Source: Sulfuricurvum sp.
Lineage (GTDB): Bacteria; Campylobacterota; Campylobacteria; Campylobacterales; Sulfurimonadaceae
Length of the DNA stretch: 64,000 nt
Assembly (NCBI GenBank): GCA_030693335.1
Contig: JAUYAU010000018.1
Span: forward strand, 1-64,000
Direction: 5' to 3'
In this document: positions 32,993 to 57,214 of the stretch, piece by piece
Position numbering within the stretch: the first letter of the stretch is position 1
How the letters are laid out: every line of letters starts with the position of its first letter
The notes under the pieces: model-generated
The model's database searches: none
What the model saw: only the letters and a program-made list of their open reading frames with translations
Told to the model about the DNA's origin: nothing
Position numbers and translations under genes: made by a program

Positions 32993-33454
32993 TTATTGTT
33001 CTTTAGTGAGTACAGTAACCCCTAATCCTGTTTCAATCGGATAGCCTTCTTTGGCCCATCCTTTGAGTCCGCCTTTTAGATTTGTCGCATTGACATAGCC
33101 CAATTTTTTAAGTGTCTGAGCGGCCAATGCACCTCGCCCTCCGCTACGGCAATAGGTCACAATGACTGCATTTTTATCTTTGATCTTGTTAAGCACTTCA
33201 AATTCTAAATTTCCGCGTGTGATTGCCACAGTGGTGGTCGCATAAATTTCACCCTCGGCACGTTGATTCTCTTCGCGCACGTCCATAACGATCACGCTTT
33301 TTTCCGCATCAATCATTTTTTTCAACTCTTTAGGAGCCATTTCTCCTGCCTCTTGTTTTGCCTCAGAAACTAATTTTTCTGCTTCTGCTTGACCTGCCAT
33401 AAGTGATGAACCTATCATCAAACTTGCAACCATTAATACATTTCTAATTTTCAT
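32993..33454 (-). CDS. Periplasmic rhodanese-like sulfurtransferase
   Basis: A 153-residue single-domain rhodanese with a signal peptide (VLMVASLMIGSSLMAGQ). The active loop is YCRSGGRGA with the catalytic Cys at about residue 102. VIVMDVREENQRAEGEI provides the conserved Asp-Val-Arg. Family members transfer sulfane sulfur to thiophilic acceptors. Export to the periplasm suggests a role in handling extracellular or periplasmic sulfur. It is the first gene of the operon and diverges from an ArsR-type regulator. Confidence 0.9.
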   Translation of the reverse strand: MKIRNVLMVASLMIGSSLMAGQAEAEKLVSEAKQEAGEMAPKELKKMIDAEKSVIVMDVREENQRAEGEIYATTTVAITRGNLEFEVLNKIKDKNAVIVTYCRSGGRGALAAQTLKKLGYVNATNLKGGLKGWAKEGYPIETGLGVTVLTKEQ

Positions 33455-56023: not shown

Positions 56024-56755
56024 ATGAGTACAACTATTACAAAAATCGATCCAGAATCCGTTGAGTTTAAAACCGAACTTGAAAAAACCATCAAATTTAC
56101 AGATAAAGTTTGCAGTCAATTTGGTTTTGTTTACAATCCTGATGCTCAAATCAACGAAGGTATTCAACTAGGTTTAACGCGCAATAAAATGATGCACGGA
56201 AAGCGCTACTGCCCTTGTTTCTTTATCACTGGGAACAAAGAAGAAGACCGTATCTGCCCATGTAAACCGGCGTTAGAGCATGAAATCCCCGTTGACGGTG
56301 TTTGCCATTGCCAAATTTTTTGTACACCTGAATACGCAGCAGCGCAAGCAAAAACCGAAGAGCTTCAAGAAGTAACACACCAACATTCACGTGGCCTTAC
56401 CACCGAAGAGTGTGAATATTTACTTAAAAAACAAAATATTGATGCTGACGAGCTAACATCTCTCTTGGAAGCACGTGAATTGGGAATGGTTAATTTTAAA
56501 CTCGTTGACGTGCGCGAATGGATGGAGTGGAAATCCGCTCGAATTGAAGGAACGGATGTCCTTGTACCAACAAGCAACTTCTTTCAAACATTAACCGAAG
56601 CCAACTTAAGTATGGATGAGCATATTATTGTTTACTGTCATGTTGGAAGCAGAAGTGCCCATTGTCAGCGTATTTTGACAGATATGGGCTATTTAAAAGC
56701 TTCCAATCTTTATGGCGGTATCGTCGCCTACAGCGGTAAAACCATTCGTGGTTAA
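56024..56755 (+). CDS. Ferredoxin:thioredoxin reductase catalytic domain fused to a rhodanese
   Basis: A 243-residue two-domain protein. Residues 1-110 are an FTR beta-like domain with cysteine motifs CPC (63-65), CPC (78-80) and CHC (94-96), the signature for the 4Fe-4S cluster and active disulfide; spacing is CPC-X12-CPC-X13-CHC. Residues 125-243 are a rhodanese domain with LVDVREWMEWKSARIEGT and catalytic Cys205 in YCHVGSRSAHC. Neither domain has a signal peptide, so it works in the cytosol. It could pass electrons from ferredoxin to a sulfur or thioredoxin substrate bound by the rhodanese. Lies 9 bases after argG and 12 before rplI. Domain calls are firm, combined role is inference. Confidence 0.82.
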   Translation: MSTTITKIDPESVEFKTELEKTIKFTDKVCSQFGFVYNPDAQINEGIQLGLTRNKMMHGKRYCPCFFITGNKEEDRICPCKPALEHEIPVDGVCHCQIFCTPEYAAAQAKTEELQEVTHQHSRGLTTEECEYLLKKQNIDADELTSLLEARELGMVNFKLVDVREWMEWKSARIEGTDVLVPTSNFFQTLTEANLSMDEHIIVYCHVGSRSAHCQRILTDMGYLKASNLYGGIVAYSGKTIRG

Positions 56756-56767
56756 TCAAGGAGCATT

Positions 56768-57214
56768 ATGAAAGTATTACTAACCAAAGACGTCAAAGGT
56801 GTCGGTAAATCCGGAGAAATAAAAGACGTAGCAGATGGTTATGGCAAAAATTTCCTTATCGGAAAAGGGCTCGCCCTTGCTGCAACCAATGAAGTATTAA
56901 AACGATACGAATCAGACCAGCGCAAAAAAACAGCGAATGACGCAGCAGAAATTGAACGTCTCACTGCTATCAAAACCACTTTGGCTAATATTAAAGTGGT
57001 GATTACTAAAAAGCTAGGCGATACAGGCCATCTTTTTGGTTCCGTTACCAAAGATGAAATCACCCATGCACTGCAAGAACAGCACGGAATTGAAATCGAT
57101 AAGAAAGAACTGGATGCGAAACATGGTATCAAAACTGTCGGTACGCATGATCTGGATTTGAAATTAGGGCATGGTATCCATGCAACCCTTCACGTAGAGA
57201 TCAAAGGTGAGTAA
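56768..57214 (+). CDS. rplI: 50S ribosomal protein L9
   Basis: A 148-residue ribosomal protein: [21 protein letters not shown] and the conserved DGYGKNFLI in the N-domain, a central helix and C-domain [10 protein letters not shown]. Overlaps era by 8 bases. Confidence 0.97.

Follow-up and report, generated by a model that had tools for sequence, protein, structure and literature searches.

A ferredoxin:thioredoxin reductase-rhodanese fusion in Sulfuricurvum, a candidate ferredoxin-linked persulfide reductase

The fusion gene and its two domains

The DNA analyzed here (the window) is a stretch of 64,000 nucleotides from a Sulfuricurvum genome. It carries a gene for a single protein in which the catalytic domain of a ferredoxin:thioredoxin reductase (FTR) is followed by a rhodanese domain (Table 1). 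The gene starts 9 nt past argG and ends 12 nt ahead of rplI, all three being on the same strand. The only domains that Pfam detects in the 243-residue protein are FeThRed_B (PF02943; E = 2.2e-31, 108.5 bits against a cut-off of 22) and Rhodanese (PF00581; E = 5.9e-13, 49.6 bits against a cut-off of 22.2). A preliminary description had assigned these two identities to one chain, which Pfam bears out with both scores above cut-off, and the positions it gave for the CPC, CPC and CHC motifs and for Cys205 are exact. A search of the genome finds no FTR gene other than the fusion, and seven other rhodanese matches. Within the window, besides the fusion, a single-domain rhodanese gene lies at 32993-33454 (minus strand).

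Table 1. Features of the fusion gene, in window coordinates
Feature	Residues	Position	Strand	Basis
FTR-rhodanese fusion gene, ATG ORF, stop included	243 aa	56024..56755	+	
FTR catalytic (FeThRed_B) domain	18-118	56075..56377	+	Pfam PF02943, Foldseek
CPC: Cys63 predicted cluster ligand, Cys65 predicted active-site Cys	63-65	56210..56218	+	sequence
CPC: Cys78, Cys80 predicted cluster ligands	78-80	56255..56263	+	sequence
CHC: Cys94 predicted ligand, His95, Cys96 predicted active-site Cys	94-96	56303..56311	+	sequence
Cys100, seventh invariant cysteine, four residues past Cys96	100	56321..56323	+	alignment
Inter-domain linker, conserved H-S-R-G-L-T motif	119-142	56378..56449	+	alignment, model
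Rhodanese domain	143-237	56450..56734	+	Pfam PF00581, Foldseek
Rhodanese active-site loop Cys205-H-V-G-S-R-S	from 205	56636..56656	+	sequence

The FTR site and the rhodanese site, with its six-residue loop, are both complete; they stand in one chain and are conserved together. An alignment of 71 fusions shows no variation at eight cysteines (Cys63, 65, 78, 80, 94, 96, 100, and 205) or at D162, R164, E165, G208, R210, and S211, and at least 90% of these sequences keep His95. The full CPC/CPC/CxC set is found in 136 of 137 unique fusions, the exception (L133) being a broken gene; the third motif is CHC in 135 of 136, and the rhodanese loop reads C..G.RS in all 137. The ligand and active-site roles of Cys63, 65, 78, 80, 94, and 96 are transferred from plant FTR numbering, which we take to apply here. 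Cys100 is absent from the plant-type and archaeal chains aligned.

The motifs are separated by 12 and then 13 residues, and this spacing was noted at the outset as unlike the 16 and 8 of plant FTR. The observation is correct, but the spacing is not special to this protein: over 136 fusions the first gap ranges from 11 to 18 and the second is constant at 13, which makes the difference from plant FTR a family trait, and a long second gap is seen in other non-plant FTR-type proteins among the aligned chains. That the odd spacing might mean a fold other than FTR is ruled out by the fusion alignment, the AlphaFold2 model and the Foldseek matches.

Structure prediction, proposed earlier as a check on both domains, recovers an FTR fold and a rhodanese fold. 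The AlphaFold2 model built with 71 sequences has a mean pLDDT of 92.9 and a pTM of 0.66 (pLDDT was 82.1 with ten sequences), with helices at residues 102-120 and 127-134, around the linker. In Foldseek searches the N-terminal half matches 1dj7 (TMt 0.64, rmsd 2.6 Å) and superposes on 7c2b (FTR) and 4tpu (a ferredoxin:disulfide reductase, FDR), the best FTR structural match being a glutaredoxin/FDR fusion (7pwe, rmsd 2.1 Å). The C-terminal half aligns with many rhodaneses, including those of fusions that act on persulfides (3icr, 4ocg, 8a56, and 5ve3), and in profile and fold it is similar to MoeZ/Uba4-type rhodaneses, which act as sulfur donors.

Distribution and genomic setting

An FTR gene is present in 164 of 397 sampled Campylobacterota species genomes. 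When 126 of the FTR-positive genomes were searched again with a full-length fusion profile, at least 105 were found by hand counts from the tables to encode an uninterrupted, full-length fusion. The same two-domain frame occurs at no fewer than 80 loci of other assemblies (the best 80 matches of a contig search), among which the nearest relatives come from Sulfuricurvum-like genomes and the informatively named ones are all Campylobacterota. The preliminary description had called for a survey of conservation in this phylum and had allowed for a join by assembly error; the fusion proves common to much of the phylum, and the same join recurs in other assemblies. An assembly or gene-calling artefact that joined two genes, which the separate adjacent genes of some relatives might bring to mind, has a vanishingly small probability and is refuted by the full-length fusions of the re-searched genomes: join and linker are the same, without stops, in more than 100 species genomes and the loci of other assemblies, and the fused rhodaneses all group together in a tree. 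A plasmid search gave one match over both domains, from Sulfurovum. A stand-alone FTR of 107 residues with the extra cysteine is found on one viral contig in IMG/VR (L121:5986-6309), where it adjoins an ORF that by eye is DNA ligase-like.

ATP-citrate lyase (ACL) is a marker of the reverse TCA cycle. Over the 397 genomes, 113 have both FTR and ACL, 51 FTR only, 6 ACL only and 227 neither, an odds ratio of 84 in a test that ignores shared ancestry, which inflates the value. Among the re-searched genomes the fusion is found in 58 of 75 with ACL and in 47 of 51 without it, and its retention in the latter argues against a role in regulation of the reverse TCA cycle only. TrxB-type thioredoxin reductase, the NADPH-dependent type, is matched in 20 of 20 genomes checked (the gene of G299 is apparently cut at contig ends). 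The fusion is therefore not simply the missing thioredoxin reductase.

Gene neighbors are uninformative as a guide to function. In the best-matching set, argG precedes the fusion at 73 of 79 loci and rplI follows it at 70 of 78, the arrangement of the home family; elsewhere the neighbors are unrelated housekeeping genes that differ by family, and no conserved sulfur-metabolism neighbor other than paralogues of the fusion itself was found across the families compared. At one locus (L187) the fusion gene follows genes for a ferredoxin, POR_N, TPP, and POR-gamma, which form an operon for a 2-oxoacid:ferredoxin oxidoreductase. This is a direct link of the fusion to ferredoxin, in a single lineage. 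The FTR variable subunit (PF02941) has no match in the Sulfuricurvum genome, the Synechococcus control being positive. According to published work, only oxygenic phototrophs have this subunit, and both ferredoxin and thioredoxin bind to the catalytic subunit (PMC9025218), so that its absence is compatible with the use of ferredoxin. Downstream of the fusion, rplI and era overlap (57207-57214 of the window) and hslVU is missing; hslVU fits the gap of 1.5-2.5 kb that separates rplI and era in many relatives. No HslU above cut-off was found in the Sulfuricurvum genome or in many genomes of the same genus that were searched.

Other arrangements of the two domains

FTR and rhodanese are also found as separate, adjacent genes. 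In Sulfurovum mangrovi a gap of 65 nt separates them, the replicon that carries them being recorded as a plasmid, and split pairs in G219, G221, G224, G264, G284, G364, and G388 bring the total to at least eight genomes. The separate rhodaneses mostly have CRTGNR-like loops. In a rhodanese tree, a single branch (SH-aLRT 98) splits 72 fused domains from seven separate ones, and an FTR tree requires no fewer than four switches between the fused form and the others, so that loss, splitting or exchange may have affected some FTR domains; each tree rests on about 100-120 columns and is suggestive only. The rhodanese tree would fit one fusion event together with an independent association of FTR with a sister rhodanese lineage. 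The pairing thus seems to have arisen twice, by fusion and as adjacent genes.

In most members of family f5 a stand-alone FTR gene lies directly 5' of the fusion, usually with an overlap of a few bases, and such a gene overlaps or abuts the fusion gene at L129, L131, L132, and L157 (families f5 and f9). The arrangement suggests a complex with two FTRs. Tandem fusion genes are found in L104 and G327. In two places (L183:4160-4513 and L129:2823-3158) the sister subfamily supplies one more single-domain rhodanese, at or near the fusion gene. Broken FTR genes are seen in G039, where the fused copy is affected (L133/L148), and in G371, where a short piece interrupted by stops is left (L136).

A second FTR architecture has a C-terminal domain of about 95 residues (L149:1441-2064, L150:1426-2103, L135:1207-1854, and L147:1204-2016). 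This domain is weakly similar to TusA/UPF0033 (E = 0.0028 in Pfam, below family cut-offs; E = 0.0082 against 3hz7, 0.33 with a profile); it has the LDxRG motif and lacks the sulfur-carrying cysteine of CPxP. The tail of this separate FTR lineage is possibly TusA-like.

Possible functions of the fusion

FTR is known mainly as the photosynthetic link from light to thioredoxin, and little is understood of what it does in bacteria that do not photosynthesize. We infer, with a little under an even chance of being right, that the fusion is a cytoplasmic ferredoxin-dependent reductase of sulfane sulfur (persulfide or polysulfide), by sequence, structural model and analogy. Cys205 would take sulfane sulfur from thiosulfate, polysulfide or a low-molecular-weight persulfide to form Cys205-S-SH. 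The reduced dithiol of Cys65 and Cys96 would attack this persulfide in a putative contact between the domains, so that sulfide is set free and a Cys65-Cys96 disulfide forms. Two single electrons, relayed through a [4Fe-4S] cluster on Cys63, Cys78, Cys80, and Cys94, would then reopen this disulfide. The putative electron donor is reduced ferredoxin, as in plant FTR, and Cys100 may serve as a relay or resolving thiol. In cells that handle much zero-valent sulfur, such an enzyme could restrain reactive sulfur or return it as sulfide to biosynthetic pathways.

Reductase-rhodanese fusions that are linked to NADH reduce per- and polysulfides (PMC7969121, PMC9405070). For NADH persulfide reductases, shuttling of sulfur by the rhodanese cysteine has been proposed (PMC7969121), and in cells this cysteine has been observed in persulfide form (PMC9405070), which supports the Cys205 persulfide step by analogy only. 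Reduction of persulfide is also favored by the invariant catalytic residues of both domains, the match of the model to FTR/FDR structures and to rhodaneses of persulfide enzymes, the apparently independent split pairs, the possible TusA-like tail, retention in ACL-negative genomes, the presence of TrxB, and the L187 ferredoxin operon. Counted against it are the want of a conserved sulfur neighbor, the pTM of 0.66, at which contact of Cys205 with Cys65 and Cys96 is putative, the missing variable subunit and rubredoxin, the TusA-like tail that is below cut-offs and without its cysteine, and the strong FTR-ACL correlation. The fuller proposal, that in a hitherto undescribed ferredoxin-linked persulfide reductase of Campylobacterota an FTR-type [4Fe-4S] center hands low-potential electrons to a rhodanese persulfide of the same chain, and that the pairing was reached independently by fusion and as a two-gene operon, is offered tentatively, as one that would fail somewhat more readily than hold.

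The fusion may instead reduce thioredoxin or another protein disulfide, with the rhodanese as a docking, sensing or targeting module, and in autotrophs CO2 fixation could then be tuned through thioredoxin. The FTR half keeps all catalytic residues, including the plant-type CHC histidine, and FTR genes track ACL, yet an invariant rhodanese cysteine and loop would be superfluous in a module that serves passively for docking, and the ACL-negative hosts and the ubiquity of TrxB among the genomes checked also speak against this role, which we consider unlikely. Delivery of sulfur is a more doubtful possibility still: the rhodanese would pass its persulfide to an acceptor in biosynthesis (for Fe-S, or for thiolation of tRNA or cofactors), with the FTR half resetting a disulfide of the rhodanese or acceptor, or freeing sulfide on the spot. 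Likeness to MoeZ/Uba4 and the possible TusA-like tail of the second FTR type agree with such a role, but no biosynthetic neighbor gene is conserved, and the fusion is absent in most of families f2 and f3, which would still need such pathways. Sulfurimonas and Sulfuricurvum are sulfur oxidizers by known physiology, and many hosts among the best 80 matches belong to these genera, as would suit an enzyme that oxidizes sulfide or persulfide and passes electrons to a high-potential acceptor in the course of sulfur oxidation. This is very improbable, however, as known FTRs reduce disulfides with low-potential ferredoxin and the protein is without a cytochrome or quinone module.

Both domains are already known, as are fusions of FTR to a single module (rubredoxin or glutaredoxin); no description of an FTR-rhodanese fusion was found in the openly accessible literature that was searched. 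With FTR-beta (PF02943; 1dj7, 2pu9, and 7c2b) the fusion shares the fold, the CPC/CPC/CHC set and the CHC histidine; it differs from plant FTR in its spacing, the extra Cys100, the C-terminal rhodanese and a genome without the variable subunit. The FDR of Methanosarcina acetivorans (4tpu) likewise joins an FTR domain with a long second gap to an extra module, which is rubredoxin rather than rhodanese, and has CYC rather than CHC at the active site; Pfam finds no rubredoxin domain in the fusion protein. In Desulfotalea psychrophila (7pwe) an FTR-type domain is likewise joined to a thiol-active module, a glutaredoxin that stands ahead of the FTR domain, whereas the Sulfuricurvum rhodanese stands behind it. 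The NADH-dependent persulfide reductases and CoA-persulfide reductases Npsr, CoADR-RHD, and CoAPR (6pfz, 3icr, 4ocg, and 8a56) also combine a reductase with a C-terminal rhodanese that has an active cysteine. The analogy is functional only: the reductase half of Npsr and CoAPR is FAD- and NAD(P)H-dependent and unrelated to the FTR-type iron-sulfur half of the fusion, in which Pfam detects no FAD/pyridine-nucleotide disulfide oxidoreductase core. Persulfide dioxygenase-rhodanese (5ve3) likewise couples a rhodanese to an enzyme that has persulfide sulfur as its substrate, but is oxidative and oxygen-dependent, with non-haem iron. If the fusion does reduce persulfides, it would stand beside the NADH-driven persulfide reductases as an equivalent driven by ferredoxin, widespread in bacteria that process much sulfur, and it would offer for FTR a concrete, testable substrate other than thioredoxin, a bound persulfide. 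Of the NCBIfam models, the closest over the FTR domain is the FtrB double-selenoprotein NF041072 (E = 1.8e-19, 69.7 bits against 160), from which the fusion differs in having cysteine in place of selenocysteine at the active-site positions and in its rhodanese. In-frame TGA codons, considered as selenocysteine, were taken as ordinary stops that end stand-alone FTR genes (L030 alone was read).
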